Source: Pirellulales bacterium (GTDB lineage: Bacteria > Planctomycetota > Planctomycetia > Pirellulales > Thermoguttaceae). From it: 35,290 nt of DNA. The DNA lies in contig JAFGIR010000057.1 of NCBI GenBank assembly GCA_016929515.1, positions 1-35,290 of the forward strand, read 5' to 3'. Each line of letters begins with the position of its first letter. Within the stretch, counting starts at the first letter, position 1. Positions 2,688 through 15,325 of the stretch are shown piece by piece. The position numbers and the translations under genes were made by a program. A model generated the notes under the pieces. That model was not told the DNA's origin. It was given only the letters and a program-made list of their open reading frames with translations, and made no database searches.

Positions 2688-4913
2688 GTGCGAGCACGCA
2701 CCCTACAGGCGGCTGCACGTGGCCTCTTACTCGTCTTCTGCCTTTTTTGGTTTTTGCCATGTCTCACTGCTCTCGGCGCCGAGGAGCCAGGCGAAGCACC
2801 CGCGCCGACGGCCGGCAACCGAGTCGGGCGTGTGCTCAGGCTTGTGTTGCCAATTACGAGCGACACCGGGCGGCTGGTGGAACGTTTCGTGAGACGCGCG
2901 ATGGACGAAGCGGAGAAGAACGATACTCGGCCCGTGCTGATTTTCCAGTTCGAGGTTCCACCAGGCCAGGAGGACTTTGGTCGAGGGAGCCAATTTGGAG
3001 CGTCGCTCGACGTGGCCACGTTCCTGTCGAGCGATGCGTTGAGCGGCGCGACCACGGTTGCCTACATTCCGCGTTCGATCCAAGGTCATGCCGTGCTCGT
3101 GGCACTGGCCTGCGACGAAATCATCATGGCCTCAGACGCCACGATTGGTTCGGCCGGAATCGACAGCCCGCGAATCGACGACGCCATGCGCGGCGGTTAC
3201 CGCGAAATCGCGCTGCGCCGCCGCACCGTGCCCGTCGAGTTGGCCCTCGGCATGCTCGACCCGGCGCACGAGGTCCACGACGTCGACACGGAGATGAGCA
3301 ACCACGAGTTCGTCACGCCCGAGCAACTCGAAGAACTTCGCAAGCATCACCGGATTAAGAACGACCGTGTCGTGATCCGGCCGGGCGAGGTGGGCCAGTT
3401 CCGAGGTGATCGGGCCCGGCAACTCGGGTTCGTCAGCTATTTGGCCCAGAATCGCCGCGAGGCGGCCGGCGCGCTTGAGTTGCCACCCGAACAAGTCGAA
3501 GAAGACATTTTACTGGCCGACAAGTGGATCGCCGTTCGGGTTGATTTGGAGGGACTCGTCACGTTCGAGAAAGTCAATCAGGTTAAGCGGTCGATCGAAG
3601 AAGCCATCGGACGCGACGCGGCCAACTTCGTCTGTCTCTGGATCGACAGTGCGGGTGGATCACCGACCGACAGCATCAACTTGGCCAACTTTCTGGCCGA
3701 TCTGCCGTCCACCAAGGTCCGCACCGTGGCCTACATCGACAATAAGGCGCGAGGCGACGCCGCCCTGGTGGCCTTGGCGTGCGATCAGATTGTCATGTTA
3801 CCCGACGCGGTACTCGGTGGCCCAGGCGACTATTTCATGTCGGCGCCGGAAATCGATCAGGCAAAAGACGGTATCCGCCAACGCGCGCGACAGAAGTTCC
3901 GATCGTGGTCCTTGCCGATGGCGATGTTTGACCCGAATCTGACGGTATTCTGCTGCACGCGTCTAAACATGCCTGGATTGAAGGAGTATTTTTGCACGGA
4001 AGAACTCGACGAAGAAAACCACGGCCAGCCCGACGGCAAGAAACAGTGGCGCCAGGGACAACCGGTACACGGTCCGGGCAGGTTGTATCAAGCCAATGGC
4101 GCCGAAGCAGTCGATCACCACCTAGCGAACCACACGGTCAAGAACTTCACCGAGTTCAAGGAGATCTATGGGCTGGAGGATGATCCTCATCTGGTTGAGC
4201 CGAACTGGGCCGACTCGCTGATCCGGATACTCGCCTCGCCCGCCGTGGCCATGTTGCTGCTAATGGTCGGCGGCGCGGCGCTGTATGCCGAGTTGCATAC
4301 ACCGGGCATCGGCCTCGGCGGTTTTCTGGCCACCGTTTGCTTCCTGATGTTCTTCTGGGCCCAGTTTATTGGAGACAATGCGGTCTGGCTCGAAATCATC
4401 CTCTTTCTGGCCGGCGTCAGCTTTCTGGTCTTGGAGGTCTTCGTTCTGCCGGGTTTCGGCATCTTCGGCATCGGCGGAGGGGCGTTGGTACTGGCCTCGC
4501 TCGTGTTGGCCACGCAAACGTTCTTCCTGCCGCGAAACGAATACCAACTTCACCAGTTTCAGGTTTCGCTGACGATTGTGGCCGGTGCCGGATTGGGGGT
4601 GGTCGTCCTCGCATCGATGTTGAATCGATGGCTGCCGCACGTGCCGCTGTTGAATCGGCTCATGCTCGGACCGCCGACGGCCGAGGAACAGGAACTCACC
4701 CAACACCGTGAATCACTGGTTCATTTCGAGGAACTGCTCGGACAACAAGGTATCACAACCACCCAATTGACACCCAGCGGCAAGGCCCGATTCGGCGACC
4801 AACTGGTCGACGTGATTGCCGATGGGGAGTTGGTCGAACCAAACACGCGCATCGTCGTGGTCGAGATCCACGGCAACCGTGTCATGGTCGAACCGGTTGA
4901 TGCGGAAGAATAA
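2688..4913 (+). CDS. Long NfeD-family membrane protein, tandem ClpP-like domains
   Basis: The protein has a signal peptide (ending near TALGA), a first ClpP-like domain (about 45-180), a second (about 280-400), four or more membrane segments (about 515-640) and a C-terminal NfeD OB-fold (about 670-741). The family (NfeD1b type) works with flotillin-like or stomatin proteins, and classical members are Ser-Lys membrane proteases. Here the strand that usually carries the ASAG-type nucleophile motif reads GHAVLVALACDEI in domain one and GDAALVALACDQI in domain two, with no serine, so both look inactive. SAGG near residue 321 of domain two keeps the oxyanion-loop style. I chose GTG 2688 because it gives a normal signal peptide; the frame is open back to GTG 2589, but the extra 33 residues look non-coding. 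Ribosome sites are weak for both. The downstream short NfeD and FloA genes fit a joint role. Confidence 0.88.
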   Translation: MRARTLQAAARGLLLVFCLFWFLPCLTALGAEEPGEAPAPTAGNRVGRVLRLVLPITSDTGRLVERFVRRAMDEAEKNDTRPVLIFQFEVPPGQEDFGRGSQFGASLDVATFLSSDALSGATTVAYIPRSIQGHAVLVALACDEIIMASDATIGSAGIDSPRIDDAMRGGYREIALRRRTVPVELALGMLDPAHEVHDVDTEMSNHEFVTPEQLEELRKHHRIKNDRVVIRPGEVGQFRGDRARQLGFVSYLAQNRREAAGALELPPEQVEEDILLADKWIAVRVDLEGLVTFEKVNQVKRSIEEAIGRDAANFVCLWIDSAGGSPTDSINLANFLADLPSTKVRTVAYIDNKARGDAALVALACDQIVMLPDAVLGGPGDYFMSAPEIDQAKDGIRQRARQKFRSWSLPMAMFDPNLTVFCCTRLNMPGLKEYFCTEELDEENHGQPDGKKQWRQGQPVHGPGRLYQANGAEAVDHHLANHTVKNFTEFKEIYGLEDDPHLVEPNWADSLIRILASPAVAMLLLMVGGAALYAELHTPGIGLGGFLATVCFLMFFWAQFIGDNAVWLEIILFLAGVSFLVLEVFVLPGFGIFGIGGGALVLASLVLATQTFFLPRNEYQLHQFQVSLTIVAGAGLGVVVLASMLNRWLPHVPLLNRLMLGPPTAEEQELTQHRESLVHFEELLGQQGITTTQLTPSGKARFGDQLVDVIADGELVEPNTRIVVVEIHGNRVMVEPVDAEE

Positions 4914-4987: not shown

Positions 4988-5578
4988 ATGGAATACTGGA
5001 TCTTATCGCTTCTGCTTCTAGTGGCCGGCCTTGGATTGGTGGTCCTCGAGGTCTTCTTCCCCTCGGGAGGAATTCTCGGATTCTTGTGCTTCTGCTCCAT
5101 CGTCGGTTCGGTGATCCTCGGGTTTCGGTATAGCGTGACCATGGGCAGCAGTGTCCTGGTGACCGCCCTCGTCGGCGTGCCGGTCGTCATCATGGTGGCT
5201 TTGCATTGGTTGCCCGATACGGCCATCGGCCGCAAGATCATCCTCGATGCGCCCCGCAGCGACGACGTCCTGCCGGACGACCCAAGAGTGCGAAGCCTGA
5301 AAGACCTGGTAAACGAGATAGGCAGGGCAAAAAGCAAAATGTTGCCTGCCGGCGTGGTCAAGATTGGTGGCCGGACGATTGATTGCGTGAGCGAGGGCAT
5401 GGCGATCGAGCCGGGTCAATGGGTTCGGGTGATCGAAGTCCGCGGAAATCGAGTGGTGGTACGCCCGCTCGACGAGGACGAAATCCCGAAGCGGCTCAGC
5501 CCCGACGACCCCCTCTCGCAGCCCATCGACTCGGTGGCCGCCGATCCGTTCGACGAGGAGGATGAGGCCTCGACTTGA
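4988..5578 (+). CDS. Short NfeD family protein
   Basis: This 196-residue protein has two or three membrane helices in the first 75 residues (MEYWILSLLLLVAGLGLVVL and the following segments) and a C-terminal NfeD OB-fold at about 110-165, seen as GGRTIDCVSEGMAIEPGQWV followed by VRGNRVVVRPL. It lacks the ClpP-like part, so it is the short form (NfeD1a or YqeZ-tail style). Short NfeD proteins are thought to bind flotillins and stabilise membrane microdomains. It lies 74 bp after the long NfeD gene and 175 bp before floA, in the order seen in yqeZ-yqfA type clusters. The tail after 165 is acidic and Pro-rich. The ribosome site is weak (GAGAAG about 5 nt upstream). Confidence 0.88.
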   Translation: MEYWILSLLLLVAGLGLVVLEVFFPSGGILGFLCFCSIVGSVILGFRYSVTMGSSVLVTALVGVPVVIMVALHWLPDTAIGRKIILDAPRSDDVLPDDPRVRSLKDLVNEIGRAKSKMLPAGVVKIGGRTIDCVSEGMAIEPGQWVRVIEVRGNRVVVRPLDEDEIPKRLSPDDPLSQPIDSVAADPFDEEDEAST

Positions 5579-5753: not shown

Positions 5754-6821
5754 ATGTTGCTCTTCGCTCAAGGCCCGGACGTGGGCCCCGACCTTTCGCA
5801 GATTCTCTGGATTGGCGGTATCCTGATTGCCGTCCTTGCGGTGCTGGTGGTTCTGGCCGTGGTGGTTCGTTATTTCCGCCTCTGGATTCAGTCCTTCACG
5901 ACCGGCGCTGGAATCGGCATCCTCGATTTGCTGGGAATGACGTTCCGCAAGGTCGACCCTCGCGTGATCGTCCGTAGCAAGATCATGGCCGTGAAATCCG
6001 GACTGGGTGAAGAGACTGGTATCACTTCCAAAGCGCTTGAAGCACATTACCTGGCCGGCGGCAACGTGCCGCTGGTAATCCGCGCGATCATCGCCGCCAC
6101 GAAGGCCAAGATTGTCGATCTTGATTTCAAGCGGGCAACGGCGATCGACCTGGCCGGCCGAAACGTGCTCGAAGCCGTTCAGACGAGCGTTTATCCAAAA
6201 GTCATCGATTGCCCGGCTCGCGGATCCGCCCGCGATTCGCTCGACGGCATCGCCCAAAATGGCATTCAGCTCAAGGTTCGTGCTCGGGTCACGGTTCGTG
6301 CCAATTTGGCACAGTTGATCGGCGGTGCGACCGAAGAAACGATCATCGCCCGCGTCGGCGAGGGCATCGTCAGTGCGATCGGCTCGGCGGCCACGCACGG
6401 CGAAGTGCTTGAAAACCCGGACAAGATTTCGAAGACGGTGCTGGCCCGACGACTCGATTCGCAAACCGCGTTTGAGATTGTCTCGATCGACATTGCCGAT
6501 GTGGACGTCGGCGACAACATCGGCGCCGTATTGCAGGGCGAACAGGCCGAGGCCGACCTGCGCGTCGCCCGGGCGAAGGCCGAAGGTCGTCGCGCGATGG
6601 CCGTGGCCGAAGAACAGGAGATGTTTGCCCAGATCGAAGAAAGCCGGGCAAAAGTGGTCGAGGCGGAAGCCGAAGTACCCAAGGCCATTGCCCAAGCGTT
6701 CCGCGAGGGAAGTCTCGGGATCATGGACTACTACAAGTTGCGAAACGTCCAGGCTGATACGGATATGCGCACGGCGATCGCCCGACCCGGAACGAAATCG
6801 GGGGGAGGAACGGCCGCATGA
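5754..6821 (+). CDS. floA: Flotillin-like protein FloA
   Basis: This 355-residue protein matches FloA (YqfA, UPF0365), an SPFH-type scaffold of bacterial membrane microdomains. One N-terminal membrane segment (about 15-40) is followed by the SPFH/band-7 region, with [28 protein letters not shown] and [20 protein letters not shown] all typical of the family. The C-terminal coiled coil is rich in Ala-Glu repeats ([20 protein letters not shown]), and the end carries the hallmark [18 protein letters not shown]. Length is close to the usual 330 residues. AAGGA 8 nt before ATG supports the start. The preceding 175-bp gap shows no convincing promoter, so transcription probably reads through from the NfeD genes. 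The stop overlaps the next start by 4 bp. Confidence 0.96.
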
Positions 6822-7543
6822 ACCCCGTGACGTTCCCGATCGCCGCGATTGGAGATCTGCTTGGCGTCGCCTTTGTGATCATCGCCGGTCTGGTTTCGGT
6901 GATCGGTCAGATCATGGCCAAGCAGCGTGAGCAAAAGGCGGCGGCCGAGAAGGCCGCGCGCCGTGGGGCGGCCGGTGGACGTCCCGCGCCGGGTCCTGTC
7001 GTCGCACAGCCTGCCCAACCAAAACGGCCCGCTAATCTGGAAGACGAAATCGGCGAGTTTCTCCGGCGTGCGGCGAGAGGTCGTGCCGGTCAAGATCGTC
7101 CGGTTCAGGCCCGGCCGGCCCAGGCCCCCGGCAGACCAAACCAACCTCGCCCGGTGCAGGCGCGCCCCGCGCAAATTCCGGTGGCCGCCGAAATCGTTGA
7201 GCCGGCACCCCACCCGGTCGGTGGAAAGGTCGAAGCCGTGGTGGCCAAGGAACTCGACACGAGTCGGTTCAAAAAACGCGCCCACCAGTTAGGCAAACGA
7301 ACTCGCGAGGTGTCGAAGCAACTCGAACAACGGGTCAGCAAGAAATTCGACCGTGAATTAGGCAAGCTGGGCGGCCAGATCGCACGGCCGGCCCCGCCGA
7401 AGAAGAAACCCGTGACGGCGATGCCCGTCATTCCGGCCACCGGCGCGGCCGGCTTCGCCGCCATGCTCCGCGACGTGCACACCGTCCGTCAGGCGGTCAT
7501 TCTCAGCGAAATCCTCAGTCGCCCCATCGACCGCTGGTCGTGA
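6818..7543 (+). CDS. Unknown membrane protein coupled to FloA
   Basis: I do not recognise a named domain in this 241-residue protein. Its ATG overlaps the floA stop (ATGA), so translation is coupled and the two are probably made in a fixed ratio. An N-terminal hydrophobic helix (about 8-30, [20 protein letters not shown]) is followed by a basic, Ala/Arg/Pro/Gln-rich linker (about 35-130) with repeats such as VQARPAQ. A charged helical part around 150-185 ([20 protein letters not shown]) precedes a conserved-looking tail near 215-241 ([20 protein letters not shown], then RPIDRW). The layout suggests a single-pass anchor with a flexible cytoplasmic arm ending in a short docking segment. A role as a FloA partner is inferred from context only. 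Confidence 0.8.
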
Positions 7544-7920
7544 GGACGCATTTGGAAATCGCTATCGGGTTGCCCACGGCTCGCCCACCCGAGTTGTCTT
7601 TTCGGGAAGTCGACAGGACCACTCAAAGAGTGGCGAAAAAAGTGGACAACAAAGCGTCCCTATGCTAGCATGGGGGGCGATTGGGTGTCCCCCCTCGTTT
7701 CCCGGGTCGTGGCGGGTGTTGGATATTGGGATGTCTCGTGGACGGCCGTTCAGCCACAAGCAAGCGGTCTCGCGATTGTCATGAGCAACTGCTCTTCAGA
7801 GTATTCCCTGCACTTCTGCTGAACGCAGCCTGATCGACAGGACGGACAGCCTCAAACGTGTTTGGCCAGTGCCAACAGTCTCGTGACAATGCAGACTTTG
7901 AACATGAGCAGGAGCGAACC
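7544..7920 (+). other. 377-bp intergenic region with hairpins and a promoter
   Basis: This gap ends the FloA cluster and starts the protease gene. CCACTC-AAA-GAGTGG (7619-7633) is a perfect 6-bp hairpin. A looser CCCGA/TCGGG pair lies at 7588-7606. Neither has a T-run, so termination of the FloA transcript here is only possible. The promoter at 7643-7671 follows, and a G6/C6 hairpin (7672-7694, loop 11 nt) sits at its predicted start point. The remaining 225 nt would be a long untranslated leader for the protease gene, with no convincing small ORF. Confidence 0.45.
7643..7671 (+). promoter_or_regulatory. Promoter of secreted C1A protease gene
   Basis: TGGACA (7643-7648), a 17-bp spacer and TAGCAT (7666-7671) each differ little from consensus. 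Start would be near 7678, inside the left arm or loop of the G6/C6 hairpin, leaving a leader of about 240 nt before the ATG at 7921. Confidence 0.5.
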
Positions 7921-9516
7921 ATGATGATCCGAAATACTTCGTGTCAAACTCGCGGTTTTTCCCTGGGCAAGGGCCCGCATGCGTCCCGGTTCGCGTGCCG
8001 TGACAGCAAAACACCTTGCCGCCGATGGGCAATCCTCGTGGTGATGGTCACGGTGGCGAGCTCATTGCTGGAAATCAACCTGGTACAGGCCGATTCTTAC
8101 GACCTGAGAGACTACAATCGTGTCACGCCGGTGAAAGATCAGAATCCTTACGGAAACTGCTGGGCGTATGCCACGATGTGTTCCATCGAAAGCAACATGC
8201 TCACGCAGGGTTTCGCGTCGGACCCAAATTCACCCTCGGTCGACTACTCCGAGTCCCACCTCTCGCGATTCTACGACGGTTACGACGTGGGGCAGCCGAT
8301 TACCGGCGGCAGTCGGCACGAGGCACTGAGCTATTTCTCTCGCGGACGAGGACCGGTGCTGGAATCGCAATATCCGAAGCCGGGCACAACCGGGGATTTG
8401 TACGCGAATCATGCCTATGCGCCCCAGTGCTGGGTGACGGCCCAGCAGTGGATCGACCGCGAGAACGTATATCATCCGGCGACTTTCCAAGACATCAAGA
8501 ACACGATCGTGGCCCACGGGGCAATCGAAACCAACATGCTCTGGGATGATTATTATTACAACGCCGGATACAACAGTTATTACTGCCCCGGCGGACCGTA
8601 CACGATCAATCACGCCGTGAGCCTGGTGGGCTGGGATGACGCCAAAATGACTCATAGTGGTAACCCCGGAGCCTGGCTGGTGAAAAACTCCTGGGACACG
8701 TGGTTTGGAGACGACGGCTACTTCTGGCTTTCCTACGACGACATGTCCGCGGTGCGGAGCGCGACTTCGTACCAGGTGGCTCCCGCCGCCACGTACAACG
8801 AAGTTATTGAAAACCAGACGAACGCGCCCAATACCTGGTGGAACATTCAGTACGGAGCATCGAAGTTCACGACCGACGGAGCCGGCTTCCTCGAAGCCGT
8901 CGGTTTCGCGACCGACGAGTATGGCATCCAATACAGCATCAGCGTCTACGACTCCTGGTCGGGCAACCAGCCCAGCGGACTGTTACGCACCGAGATGGGA
9001 AGTTACGACTGGCCGGGCTATTATGTCGTCGATTTCGATTCGCCTATCCTGATGGAAGCAAACGACGACTTTGTCGTCGTTCTCCATCTCTCCGGAGGAA
9101 CCGGGGCTGGCTACTATCTGGCAGCGGATACCACCTGCGGCGACCCCATGGACGTCAACTACATTAGCAACGACGGAATGTACTGGTATGACATGAGCTC
9201 AATGCTTGGCGGCGACAACATCCTCTTCCTAAAAACGTTCGTGAGCAACATTCCCGGCGACGCCAACCGCGACGGCGCCGTCGACGAGGCGGATTCGGCC
9301 GCGCTGGCGGCCAACTGGGGCGAGAGCGACGCGACCTGGGCGATGGGCGACTTCGACTGCGACGGGGTCGTCGGGCCTCGCGACGCATCGATCCTGGGAG
9401 CCAACTGGGGCTACAACGCAAGCGAAGCGTTGGCCGTGCCGGAGCCGAGCGTGTTCATTCTGATGCTCGGTGCACTGGTTGCGTGCGGCACGCTTCGATC
9501 GCGGTCTGACCGATAA
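7921..9516 (+). CDS. Secreted papain-family protease with dockerin and PEP-CTERM
   Basis: This 531-residue protein is exported and then sorted to the surface. A long signal region (about 1-58, hydrophobic WAILVVMVTVASSLLEI) precedes a C1A peptidase domain. The oxyanion Gln74 and nucleophile Cys80 lie in DQNPYGNCWAY, the catalytic His231 in INHAVSLVGWDD, and Asn256 in KNSWDTWFGDDGYF, so it looks active and lacks a large inhibitory propeptide. A lectin-like domain of the type found after such peptidases spans about 295-425. A type I dockerin at about 445-495 has two Ca-binding loops (DANRDGAVDEAD and DFDCDGVVGPRD). The tail is a PEP-CTERM signal, VPEP at 506-509, a hydrophobic segment and RSRSDR. 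AGGAG 6 nt before ATG 7921 supports this start over an open ATG/TTG region upstream. It stands alone with its own promoter. Confidence 0.94.
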   Translation: MMIRNTSCQTRGFSLGKGPHASRFACRDSKTPCRRWAILVVMVTVASSLLEINLVQADSYDLRDYNRVTPVKDQNPYGNCWAYATMCSIESNMLTQGFASDPNSPSVDYSESHLSRFYDGYDVGQPITGGSRHEALSYFSRGRGPVLESQYPKPGTTGDLYANHAYAPQCWVTAQQWIDRENVYHPATFQDIKNTIVAHGAIETNMLWDDYYYNAGYNSYYCPGGPYTINHAVSLVGWDDAKMTHSGNPGAWLVKNSWDTWFGDDGYFWLSYDDMSAVRSATSYQVAPAATYNEVIENQTNAPNTWWNIQYGASKFTTDGAGFLEAVGFATDEYGIQYSISVYDSWSGNQPSGLLRTEMGSYDWPGYYVVDFDSPILMEANDDFVVVLHLSGGTGAGYYLAADTTCGDPMDVNYISNDGMYWYDMSSMLGGDNILFLKTFVSNIPGDANRDGAVDEADSAALAANWGESDATWAMGDFDCDGVVGPRDASILGANWGYNASEALAVPEPSVFILMLGALVACGTLRSRSDR

Positions 9517-11295: not shown

Positions 11296-12303
11296 ATGTC
11301 GGTCGAATCGGAAGCTGCAAAAGCGGCCCAGCAACAGGTCGAGTTTTTTGCGGACCGGGTCCGCACTATTCGGCAGAGTCTCCATGAAGTGGTCGTCGGC
11401 CAAAACGCGGTCATCGATCAGATGCTCATCTGTGCCCTGACTGGTTCCCACGCGCTGTTGGTCGGGGTGCCGGGCTTGGCCAAGACACTTCTGATCAAGG
11501 CACTTGCCTCGTCGTTCGACTGGAAGTTCTCGCGGATTCAGTTCACGCCCGACTTAATGCCGGCCGACGTAACCGGCTACGAATTGCTCGGACGGGGTCA
11601 CGATTCACAGGGTCCGGAGATGGTCTTTCGTCGAGGGCCCGTCTTCGCCAATCTGGTTCTGGCCGACGAAATTAACCGCGCGGCTCCCAAGACCCAATCG
11701 GCTTTGCTCGAAGCCATGGCCGAGCACCATGTGACCATCGGCGGTCAGACCTACCCGTTGGAGGAACCGTTCCTGGTCGCCGCGACGCAGAACCCGATCG
11801 AGCAGGAAGGGACCTATCCGTTGCCCGAGGCACAATTGGATCGCTTCATGATGGAAATCCGCATCGGTTACCCCACGCCGGAACAGGAAGAAGAGATCGT
11901 GATGCGGACCACGGGCGGAATGCCGCCGTTGCCGAAAGCTTCGCTCGACCGCAAGCAATTCCTCCAGCTTCGCGATCTGGTGCTGGCCGTGCCGGTGCCG
12001 AAGAGCGTGGCCAGCAGTGCCGTTCGCATGTGTTCGGCAGGCCGGCCCGACAACGGTCACGCCAGCCAGTACATCAGAGACTACGTTGCCTGGGGTGCCG
12101 GGCCTCGCGGCTCGCAGAACCTTGTGTTGGCGGCCAAGGCGTGGGCCTTGTTGCAGGGACGCACGGCGCCGATCCTCGATGATCTTCAGACCGTGGCCAA
12201 GGCCGTCTTGCGGCACCGGGTCATCGTGAACCATCGAGCCGTGGGCGACTCGGTCACCTCGGAGGACATCATCGATCATCTGCTCGAAGAAGCCGCGGTA
12301 TGA
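11296..12303 (+). CDS. MoxR family AAA+ ATPase
   Basis: This 335-residue cytosolic ATPase is a MoxR-type AAA+ chaperone that acts with VWA-domain proteins to assemble or activate other proteins. Walker A is GVPGLAKT at 57-64, Walker B is VLADEINR near 121-128, and sensor 1 follows in VAATQNPIEQEGTYPLPEAQ. The lid region carries YIRDYVAWGAGPRGSQNL, typical of the MRP subfamily. Length is standard. GAGAGGGAG about 6 nt before ATG is a strong ribosome site. Its stop overlaps the next start by 4 bp, so it is translationally coupled to the DUF58 gene, the usual MoxR partner. Confidence 0.97.
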   Translation: MSVESEAAKAAQQQVEFFADRVRTIRQSLHEVVVGQNAVIDQMLICALTGSHALLVGVPGLAKTLLIKALASSFDWKFSRIQFTPDLMPADVTGYELLGRGHDSQGPEMVFRRGPVFANLVLADEINRAAPKTQSALLEAMAEHHVTIGGQTYPLEEPFLVAATQNPIEQEGTYPLPEAQLDRFMMEIRIGYPTPEQEEEIVMRTTGGMPPLPKASLDRKQFLQLRDLVLAVPVPKSVASSAVRMCSAGRPDNGHASQYIRDYVAWGAGPRGSQNLVLAAKAWALLQGRTAPILDDLQTVAKAVLRHRVIVNHRAVGDSVTSEDIIDHLLEEAAV

Positions 12304-13208
12304 ACACGCCACGCAACAGCCGGTTTCTCGACGTAGTGGCGCTCTCGGCATTGGAACACATGCGGTTCACGACGCGTCACCACATCGAGGGTGCCTACAG
12401 CGGTCGCCACCAATCTCGCCAGCAAGGGGGCGTCGGTGAGTTCGTCGACTTCCGCGAGTACTCCGGAAGCGAAGACTTGCGGCGGCTCGATTGGAAAGTC
12501 CTCGCCCGAACCGACAAGGCATTCGTTCGGCTCTATCAAGATGAAACGAATCTGCTGTGTACGCTGGCGATCGACGCCAGCGGCTCGATGCGATTCGGCA
12601 GCCCCAATGGCCTCGCGGCGGGCTCCAAGTTGGAGTATGTGCAATACTTGGCGACCGCGCTGAGCCATGTGATCAGCCGAGGGCAAGACCAGATCGGGTT
12701 GGCCGTGCTGACCAACGGGTTGGGCACAACACTTCCGCCCGGCGGAACAATGTCGCACGTGAGCCACTTGCAGGAAATCGTTGAGAACCTCGCGACCGAA
12801 CCGACTGCCAAGATGGCCACCGGGCTGCACGGCCTGTTCGAGCGATCCAGCCGACGCGGTGTCTTGCTCTTGATGAGCGACTTCCTGATGGACGATTTGG
12901 AGGAGACGTTTGCCGCGCTCCGGCTATTTCGGCACCGCAATTGGGAAGTCGTCACACTGCACATTGTCCATCCGGACGAAGAACGGCTGCCGGCGGGAAC
13001 CGCGTATCGTTTCGAGGGCCTGGAAAACGAGGGCCGCGTCGACTGCTCGCCCGCGGAGATCGCCGCCGCCTACGGACGTCGTTTTTCGACCCACCTGGCC
13101 ACGGTGCGCCAGTTGGCGCTGGCCGGTGGTTGCGACTACCGGCTCGTCTCGACGGGCGTACCTTACCTGCAAACGCTCGGCAGCTTTTTAGTGGAGCGAT
13201 CCGGATGA
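12300..13208 (+). CDS. DUF58 (VWA-like) domain protein
   Basis: This 302-residue protein belongs to the DUF58 family, a VWA-like group nearly always next to MoxR. The family signature is present as DFREYSGSEDLRRLDWKVLA near 47-66. A metal-ion-dependent adhesion (MIDAS) motif DASGS occupies residues 92-96 and would bind Mg2+ and a partner. No membrane segment is visible, so it is probably cytosolic and docks to MoxR. Its start overlaps the moxR stop and its stop overlaps the BatA-like start, both by 4 bp, giving tight translational coupling across three genes. The ligand is unknown. Confidence 0.95.
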   Translation: MNTPRNSRFLDVVALSALEHMRFTTRHHIEGAYSGRHQSRQQGGVGEFVDFREYSGSEDLRRLDWKVLARTDKAFVRLYQDETNLLCTLAIDASGSMRFGSPNGLAAGSKLEYVQYLATALSHVISRGQDQIGLAVLTNGLGTTLPPGGTMSHVSHLQEIVENLATEPTAKMATGLHGLFERSSRRGVLLLMSDFLMDDLEETFAALRLFRHRNWEVVTLHIVHPDEERLPAGTAYRFEGLENEGRVDCSPAEIAAAYGRRFSTHLATVRQLALAGGCDYRLVSTGVPYLQTLGSFLVERSG

Positions 13209-15325
13209 CGTTTTTGCATCCCTGGGCAATCTGGCTTGGACTGGCGGCCGCTACCGTGCCCATCACGGTTCACTTGCTGACGCGGCCTCGTCCGATGCGG
13301 ATGCCGCTTTCCACATTGCGTTTTGTCCGCGAGGTAGTCCGCCAACGCCGCAATCGCAGTCGGCTGCGCGATCTGCTGATCCTGGTCTTCCGCACCGCAG
13401 CCATCCTCCTGCTGGCTGCCGCGATCGCCCGGCCGCAATGGGGCTCGCGGCCGTTGACTTCCGATTCCGTCGCCGGCCGTGCGGTTCGCGTGGTCCTGCT
13501 TGACGTTAGCCAGAGCATGGCGGCCACCGAGGGCAGCATCGAGGTGATCCAACGCGCGCGACCACGCGCCGCCGACTACCTGCGCTATCGGCCGGGGCTA
13601 AAGGTCAACTTGATTCTGGCCGGTGCCGCGCCGCGTGCCGTTTTCGAACAACCGTCAACCAATTTCGGCGCACTTCGAGATGAGCTTTCGGCCGCTCGAG
13701 TTTTGCCCGAGCGAATCGACGTTCGGCGTGCAATCCACCTGGCGGCACGAATGCTTGCCCCGAGTTCCCCGGAAGACAAGGCTCGACGCGAATTGGTCAT
13801 GGTTGGTGATTTCCAGCGGTCGAATTGGGCCCGCGCCGATTTTTCGCTACTTCCGGCGGAAACAAAGATCCAGCTTGAGTCCGTCGCGCCCGAGCGGCCG
13901 CCGGCGAATCTGGCCATTACCCGGGCCACCGCGACGGTGCTTAGCGCGAGCAAGGAGGACATGCAGCTCGAAGTCGATGTCACGAACGATACTCCGTCGG
14001 AGAGAAAGACCACGGTTGAAGTGAATCTGGGCGAGGCAACGTATCGATTGGTGGGCACGTGTCCGCCAGGACGCGAGACTACGCTTACCGCGCGGCTTGA
14101 TCGGCGTGGCTTGGGGTGGCAGTACGGCGAGGCCCGGTTGGTCGGCATCGACGACGCACTCTCGGCGGACAACGTTCGCCCGCTGGTTGTGCATATTCCG
14201 CCCAAGCCGGTCTACGCCCTGATTACACGGCAGTCGGCCACCCAGCGACCTTCGTCGAGCCATTTCCTCCAGTGTGCGCTGGCGCCCGACAAGCGGCTTG
14301 GCGAAAAGGCCTCGACCACGGTTCTGCGGCTGGATCCGGCTTCGCTCGATCACGTCGCGCTGGCACCGGCCCGAATGATCGTGCTCGATCACCCCGGCAG
14401 ATTAGATGACGAAGCCGTGACCTTGCTGGCCGGATTGTTGCGACGTGGGCGACCAATGCTCTACGTAGCCAGCAAACCGGTCGATGCAGCCAATTTGAAG
14501 CGACTGGCGGAAGCGGTGGGAACCGGATTGCGGATGCCAATCGAGTTCACGCCGCCGGCGCCGGGTCAGTCGCGCCGCGATCTCTTCTTGACCTCGGTTC
14601 GTGGCAACCAACCGCCGTTTCGCGTCTTTGGCGACAGTCTTTCGGCGATCACCGGGCGGTTGCGTTTTGCCGGCGGATTGAATTCCCGGCAAGTGGAAGG
14701 CGGGTTGACCAACGATATCCTGGCGAGCTTCAACGACAGCTCGGCCGCGTTGGTGCTTACCACGTCGGACGCGGGAACCCTGGCCGTGTTGAATGCCGAT
14801 CTGGGAATATCGAATCTGCCTCGCACGCCCGTGTTCGTGCCGTTGTTGGATGAGTTGATCGACCGGATGCTGCGACAGGACCGTGCGGACAACTCGGTCG
14901 AGTGCGGCGAGCCACTGGTTGTGAGTCTCCCGCCGGAGGCAGACGTTGCGGCAGGGCTCAAGGTCGTTGGGCCCGCAGGCACGTCGCCCGAGGCAGCCGT
15001 GGAAAACCAGTTCGGTGAATTGGTCGATCAAGGCGCGACAGTCGTCTGGCACTGGGAGTCACCCAACCAACCCGGCGCGTATCGCGTCGAACGTGAGAGT
15101 CAGGTGGTCTGCTCCGTGCCCGTGGTTCTTCCGGCCGAAGAGAGTCGGCTGGAAAGTCTTCCCGACGAGGTGTTGACCGAACGTCTCTCCGGCGGACGCG
15201 ACGTTCGTTACCGCGGTGTCAAGACAGCCGTGGGCCGGCAGGACGACTCGTGGGTCTACTTCACCGTGGCCTGTCTGTTTTGCATGTTCGCCGAGGTGAT
15301 GACCCTGTTGGTCTTCAAGACCTGA
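13205..15325 (+). CDS. BatA-like VWA membrane protein
   Basis: This 706-residue protein begins with the BatA N-terminal pattern: a membrane helix (about 5-22), the conserved LLTRPRP loop and a second helix (about 60-78). A VWA domain follows with a MIDAS DVSQS at 100-104. The centre (about 230-330) looks like beta-sandwich repeats with alternating basic and hydrophobic residues, and a C-terminal helix (about 680-700, YFTVACLFCMFAEVMTLLVF) anchors the end. Most of it should sit outside the cytoplasm. The frame is open far upstream within the DUF58 gene, but ATG 13205, which overlaps the DUF58 stop, is the start that matches the BatA family. BatA-type proteins are linked to aerotolerance and envelope stress, but their mechanism is unclear. 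Confidence 0.92.
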   Translation: MTFLHPWAIWLGLAAATVPITVHLLTRPRPMRMPLSTLRFVREVVRQRRNRSRLRDLLILVFRTAAILLLAAAIARPQWGSRPLTSDSVAGRAVRVVLLDVSQSMAATEGSIEVIQRARPRAADYLRYRPGLKVNLILAGAAPRAVFEQPSTNFGALRDELSAARVLPERIDVRRAIHLAARMLAPSSPEDKARRELVMVGDFQRSNWARADFSLLPAETKIQLESVAPERPPANLAITRATATVLSASKEDMQLEVDVTNDTPSERKTTVEVNLGEATYRLVGTCPPGRETTLTARLDRRGLGWQYGEARLVGIDDALSADNVRPLVVHIPPKPVYALITRQSATQRPSSSHFLQCALAPDKRLGEKASTTVLRLDPASLDHVALAPARMIVLDHPGRLDDEAVTLLAGLLRRGRPMLYVASKPVDAANLKRLAEAVGTGLRMPIEFTPPAPGQSRRDLFLTSVRGNQPPFRVFGDSLSAITGRLRFAGGLNSRQVEGGLTNDILASFNDSSAALVLTTSDAGTLAVLNADLGISNLPRTPVFVPLLDELIDRMLRQDRADNSVECGEPLVVSLPPEADVAAGLKVVGPAGTSPEAAVENQFGELVDQGATVVWHWESPNQPGAYRVERESQVVCSVPVVLPAEESRLESLPDEVLTERLSGGRDVRYRGVKTAVGRQDDSWVYFTVACLFCMFAEVMTLLVFKT

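Follow-up and report, generated by a model that had tools for sequence, protein, structure and literature searches.

The window, the whole stretch of 35,290 nucleotides analysed here, carries a gene for a tandem ClpP-like NfeD protein, followed by genes for a short NfeD and for the flotillin FloA (Table 1). The 741-residue length of the tandem protein and all residue numbers count from the predicted GTG start; the longest open frame of the gene begins further upstream, at an in-frame GTG at 2589. A signal-peptide-like start suggests that the protein is exported. Pfam's NfeD1b_N model (PF25145) reached 68.3 bits (cut-off 40) in two stretches, the better at residues 298–378, and with membrane and OB domains, an NfeD1b-kind ClpP-like N-terminus and a linked SPFH gene the locus has the NfeD1b (ClpP-NfeD) architecture. 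Upstream is a YjgF/Rid-type gene (Pfam), a linkage that was conserved in 0 of 70 loci. Downstream, a 241-aa Pro/Ala/Arg-rich protein with no Pfam family is encoded at 6818–7543, its start overlapping the end of floA. A papain-family protease with a lectin-like domain follows at 7858–9516, with dockerin and PEP-CTERM matches just under their cut-offs, and a run of MoxR-type ATPase, DUF58 and BatA/VWA genes occupies 11296–15325.

Table 1. Coordinates of the tandem NfeD gene, its parts and its downstream neighbours within the window
Feature	Position	Strand	Basis
Tandem ClpP-like NfeD (NfeD1b-type), predicted pseudoprotease	2688–4913	+	741 aa from GTG at 2688
N-terminal hydrophobic signal-peptide-like segment, residues 1–32	2688–2783	+	sequence; predicted helix 4–21
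D1, first ClpP-like domain, residues 43–277, predicted inactive	2814–3518	+	superposition on 1510-N (6m4b_A)
D1 nucleophile position, Gly133, and invariant His134	3084–3089	+	alignment of same-order tandems
D2, second ClpP-like domain, residues 280–505, predicted inactive	3525–4202	+	model; superposition on 1510-N (6m4b_A)
Ser321 of IDSAGG, in DSPGG-type strand, not the nucleophile	3648–3650	+	alignments
D2 nucleophile position, Gly356, and following Asp357	3753–3758	+	profile alignment to PH1510
D2 site lacking the L2 loop and catalytic lysine, residues 378–390	3819–3857	+	loop-length comparison
NfeD membrane domain, five predicted helices, residues 518–651	4239–4640	+	PF24961, 88.2 bits (cut-off 26), model at residues 520–642
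NfeD C-terminal OB domain, putatively partner-binding, residues 681–736	4728–4895	+	PF01957, 48.0 bits (cut-off 29.1)
Short NfeD without ClpP domain	4988–5578	+	PF01957, 45.1 bits
Flotillin FloA	5754–6821	+	PF12127, 482.1 bits; NF010186, 492.2 bits

AlphaFold2, supplied with 75 sequences, modelled the full chain at a mean pLDDT of 89.4, with D1 and D2 mostly above 90, and D2 modelled alone reached 96.5. An earlier note on this DNA had read the chain as two ClpP-like domains lacking their catalytic serines and had proposed superposing each predicted domain on PH1510, the STOPP/NfeD1b protease of Pyrococcus horikoshii. We found that 1510-N of PH1510 (6m4b_A) was the top structural match for both domains, with Z 19.5 and rmsd 2.4 over 175 residues for D1 (residues 43–277) and Z 19.0 and rmsd 2.4 over 170 residues for D2 alone. 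D1 and D2 align with one another as homologues (hhalign probability 99.9, E 2.8e-34), and D2 is nearer the family of single-domain relatives (hhalign 100, E 9e-50) than is D1 (99.8, E 8e-28). At the sequence level, phmmer with the single tandem protein gave no match among PDB sequences, whereas the family profile did. The D1 profile alone did not find PH1510 by sequence, and the D1 register used below is based on alignment with the single-domain family together with the fold match.

The nucleophile position corresponds to the first residue of GHAVLVALACDEI in D1 (residues 133–145) and of GDAALVALACDQI in D2 (residues 356–368). Searched against the PDB, the tandem-family profile placed the D2 segment 'Arsd' on the motif around Ser97 in wild-type PH1510 (2deo, E 2e-10) and also matched the S97A entry (E 1.6e-10), while the D2 profile alone (4.7e-12) set its Arg-Gly-Asp columns on Ala96-Ser97-Ala98. 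For D1, hhalign laid SIQGHAV over MALSGAA of the single-domain family without gaps (probability 99.8), with Gly133 on the family Ser. Together, the three register alignments indicate that the Ser positions of both domains are occupied by Gly (133 and 356), and that the Ser97-equivalent nucleophile of the PH1510 type is absent from both, as the earlier note had claimed. That note had also named Ser321, of a SAGG motif, as a possible nucleophile that would overturn its reading; Ser321 instead aligns with the Thr in the LDTPGG motif of PH1510 and, among dyad-bearing relatives, falls in DSPGG. This strand, whose Gly323 and Gly324 are conserved, we take to have a substrate-binding or oxyanion role.

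The catalytic lysine is absent too, since the protein no longer has the L2 loop on which it would sit. From G378 to A412 the tandem protein has 33 residues, compared with 42–43 in 10 single-domain homologues with the dyad, and these homologues have an Ala-Pro-Glu-Lys type motif where PH1510 has Lys138. A PH1510-type L2 loop with a Lys138-equivalent base is thus missing from the tandem protein. According to the PH1510 study (PMC3795559), Lys138 lies at the base of L2, the S97A and K138A mutants are inactive, deletion of L2 residues 126–133 left no detectable products, and one dimer binds one peptide, between the two protomers.

A match was present in 54 of 60 genomes examined, including the window's own, and a single match spanned both domains in 48 of the 60; it was split in two pieces in genomes G021 and G059 (rows read by eye). 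Across the phylum 235 of 294 genomes had a match, and among the matches listed those covering both domains fell within the window's class, while those outside it were of one-ClpP-domain length or shorter. With 25 near-identical proteins of 165 removed, the set of same-order tandems, the order likely being Pirellulales, numbered 113. Outside this set are the fragment L063 and the single-domain, order-type L052; the partial sequence L119 belongs to it and stands outside the set of 112 used for per-position conservation. The redundant L002 and L064 had been removed before an earlier alignment, and of 80 named loci A3 took 74 and A4 55.

Alignment of the planctomycete homologues at the Ser and Lys positions, a check the earlier note had suggested, gave Gly at the D1 nucleophile position throughout the order (112 of 113, with one gap) and the L2-Lys motif in none of the 113. 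Being common to the whole order, this loss is not a matter of chance. At the D2 position Gly occurs 44 times, Ser 39, Ala 29 and Cys once; 39 tandems therefore have a Ser without its Lys, and residual or altered chemistry is possible in those relatives. The D2 loop measures 32–35 residues in 108 of the 113. In the other five (L050, L048, L167, L168 and L169), all with Gly, unrelated inserts of greater length (44–65 residues), some of them Pro/Arg/Asp-rich, stand in place of the L2 loop.

All 29 single-domain relatives, 11 from the order and 18 from outside the class, have Ser. Among 31 tandems of a second family of the same class (f21), D1 is dead, and D2 has both Ser and Lys in 28 and neither in three (Lys read partly by eye). 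These rows, L191–L207 and L075–L090 minus L076, constitute a natural half-way state. The f22 member has neither D2 Ser nor Lys, and the f23 tandems L208, L209 and L210 have Asp, Asp and Ala at the D2 position; their L2 region is shortened and their D1 carries Gly-His.

The FastTree phylogeny put all tandems to one side of a branch and the window's order with f22 and f23 to one side of another, the order branch having a support of 99, with the caveat that long branches can mislead; L051, L063 and L119 are absent from the second tree. Over the first tree the D2 position required 22 changes between Ser and non-Ser, and 19 within the order, counts that are independent of the root; the direction of change we infer. 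That D1 is uniformly Gly, D2 is mixed and the D2 of f21 is intact suggests that D1 died before D2. The pattern fits a history in which D1 lost its serine first and D2 was inactivated afterwards; f21 underwent smaller losses of its own. This sequence of domain losses, the missing L2 loop and the invariant Gly-His of D1 go beyond what the earlier note had described.

Per-position conservation differed between the two sites. In the set of 112 same-order tandems, Gly133 is found in all and His134 in 111, ranking 2 and 4 among 240 D1 positions, and Cys142 joins them within the four most conserved. Position 356 of D2, in most relatives followed by Asp, ranks 128 of 215, with Ala354 (99%) and Ala358 (95%) nearby. 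These ranks indicate that the D1 site is kept for something and that only the D2 nucleophile position is relaxed. A new enzymatic activity at a remodelled D1 site, built on Gly133-His134 and Cys142, would accord with this conservation and with the rarity of the His outside the order, where 1 of 15 tandems in the conservation set has it. We consider such an activity improbable, however, as no partner base is evident and it has no known substrate, and as the Cys142 counterpart is conserved in dyad-bearing relatives too, so that Cys142 may be structural.

The relaxed D2 column might also be taken to mean that D1 and D2 are decaying, roleless relics persisting by drift. Against this, both domains are intact in more than 100 relatives, and dN between the window and five relatives (0.21–0.27 for D1 and 0.23–0.42 for D2) is not far above that of the C-terminal, membrane part (0.14–0.29), which makes decay very unlikely. 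With dS at 0.88 or more (saturated in 2 of 15 comparisons), the substitution rates indicate purifying selection on both D1 and D2. The fold is kept, the catalytic residues are lost and the gene is under selection, as expected of a ClpP-fold pseudoprotease.

For the whole model, Foldseek ranked E. coli SppA first. This tandem S49 protease likewise has two ClpP-fold domains per chain; it is active and has no NfeD domain, and its dyad is composite, one domain giving the lysine and the other the serine. Could the tandem NfeD assemble such a site, with lysine from D1 and serine from D2? Of 112 relatives, 19 do have a D1 Lys at column 161 and 39 a D2 Ser. The window protein has neither, and D2 Ser/non-Ser stood at 9/7 in relatives with the D1 Glu-Lys motif and 30/66 in those without (Fisher p 0.086), with p 0.84 when any Lys in the D1 stretch was counted. 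SppA also superposed across both domains only at rmsd 18.5, from which it follows that, in the present model, the domain arrangement is not common to the two proteins. With the residues absent and no clear Ser-Lys association, a composite dyad is largely ruled out for the window, and we regard it as exceedingly improbable. Identity as an SppA (S49) peptidase was also rejected: TIGR00706 gave 42.1 bits against a cut-off of 155.45, PF01343 fell below its cut-off, and neither Ser nor Lys is present. The window's genome has separate SppA homologues, and a 670-aa tandem SppA-type protein with a Ser motif in its C-terminal half is encoded on contig G000:C385 (L175).

The earlier note had placed the tandem protein beside FloA, and this position recurs among relatives. 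In the 58 related loci whose downstream sequence ran to 2.5 kb or more, FloA lay 0.7–1.7 kb downstream in 42 and was not found within the downstream DNA examined in 16; the short NfeD was downstream in 48 of the 58. A second FloA gene of the same genome (G000:C39:796-1701, L177; 435 bits) lies away from the window. In 10 of the 60 genomes there is, besides, an NfeD1b of single-domain type whose Ser and Lys are invariant, which raises the possibility that the inactive tandem partners such an active protease and tunes it, as non-catalytic ClpR accompanies ClpP in plastids. Most of the 60 genomes are without a single-domain NfeD1b, though, and 13 regions around single-domain NfeD1b or similar genes (two of the regions short) showed no FloA. 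In the window's own genome the single-domain-family profile matched nothing beyond the tandem, the short NfeD and two genes of SppA type (named by eye); this profile search found no active single-domain NfeD1b there, in an assembly that is 92.3% complete in 503 contigs and in which one located elsewhere could be missed. A regulatory subunit of this kind thus seems to us rather unlikely.

The earlier note had proposed a structural or substrate-binding role in place of proteolysis. Its negative half stands: the lack of Ser and of L2-Lys, the order-wide extent of this state and the joint retention or joint loss of Ser and Lys in f21 argue strongly that the tandem NfeD carries out no serine proteolysis, of which we are highly confident. 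Its positive half is the most plausible of the readings left. As catalysis is lost and the DSPGG-type strand conserved, we prefer peptide or client binding coupled to FloA, and would put the chance that the protein is such a binding partner of FloA at about even. Taken as a whole, the tandem NfeD is most readily explained, with somewhat better than even confidence, as a ClpP-like protease of the STOPP/NfeD1b type in which both sites were inactivated and which, as a pseudoprotease partnering flotillin, binds peptides or stretches of client proteins. Sequence comparison shows that the domain was duplicated, that both dyads were lost, that the domains are conserved throughout the order under purifying selection and that the gene is linked to floA; with both cutting sites lost across the order, the protein's task is probably to hold on to polypeptides or to sense them, and not to cleave them.

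For this client-binding pseudoprotease, we envisage that an NfeD1b chain duplicated its ClpP-like domain within the window's class, and that the serine of the N-terminal copy disappeared in the tandems' common ancestor. In the window's order the L2 loop with its lysine would then have been lost from the C-terminal copy, whose nucleophile position may afterwards have drifted repeatedly among Ser, Gly and Ala. The five membrane helices and the signal-peptide-like start would set D1-D2 outside and the OB domain inside. At the membrane's outer face, D1-D2 could still have a groove for peptides, perhaps as the two protomers of the PH1510 homodimer joined in one chain, and could bind or monitor segments that are hydrophobic or unfolded, while the membrane and OB domains would connect them to FloA on the inner face; the whole unit would act as a client-binding scaffold or sensor, not as a protease. 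A bolder version, which we offer as a doubtful possibility, is that the tandem is a single-chain counterpart of the PH1510 homodimer whose centres were switched off stepwise, with D1 rebuilt around Gly-His and the cleavage tunnel turned into an ATP-independent peptide clamp at the outer face of flotillin domains. If true, a protease that processed flotillin would, throughout an order, have been turned into a holdase or sensor.

Comparable systems each share a part of this arrangement. PH1510 has the same ClpP fold per domain and an NfeD gene adjoining its SPFH partner, but one ClpP-like domain where the tandem has two, with Gly at both Ser97 positions and no L2 or Lys138. YqeZ-YqfA of Bacillus subtilis (NfeD1b type, SPFH5/FloA) is likewise an operon pairing with FloA; YqeZ has one ClpP domain, whereas the planctomycete protein is tandem and inactive. 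In a survey, YqeZ is described as including a ClpP protease motif and adjoining YqfA, and planctomycetes are among the SPFH5 carriers (PMC2636767). Plastid ClpR resembles the tandem NfeD in being ClpP-type without catalytic sites, and is described as such a subunit within a working plastid complex (PMC6508832). ClpR, however, sits in a soluble Clp core beside active ClpP, and the tandem NfeD is a membrane chain with two dead domains. In Staphylococcus aureus, FloA is paired with an OB-domain-bearing NfeD that, in the main text of the report, binds FloA through the OB domain, placed inside, and with it stabilises unfolded clients; at 26 kDa it is much shorter than the tandem, and the terms 'ClpP' and 'serine protease' are absent from that main text (PMC11222466).

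ClpP-NfeD with FloA and non-catalytic plastid ClpP paralogues are thus already known, and a tandem dead NfeD is not among the literature found. Titles and opening abstracts of the literature searched, with subscription journals mostly outside the search, held no description of a tandem or catalytically dead NfeD. In what NfeD proteases do for flotillins, cutting is hard to separate from scaffolding. The tandem relatives form a large natural collection that retains the scaffold and has lost the cutting in two steps, which a tree can locate, and, as a sister family retains one active site, comparison would reveal which flotillin functions require proteolysis. Automatic labels of ClpP-like or S49 protease are likely wrong for tandem NfeD genes across an order. 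Four records titled Candidatus Nealsonbacteria or Candidatus Kuenenia (L120, L156, L159 and L160) carry a same-order planctomycete gene, and their bins are probably mislabelled or mixed.
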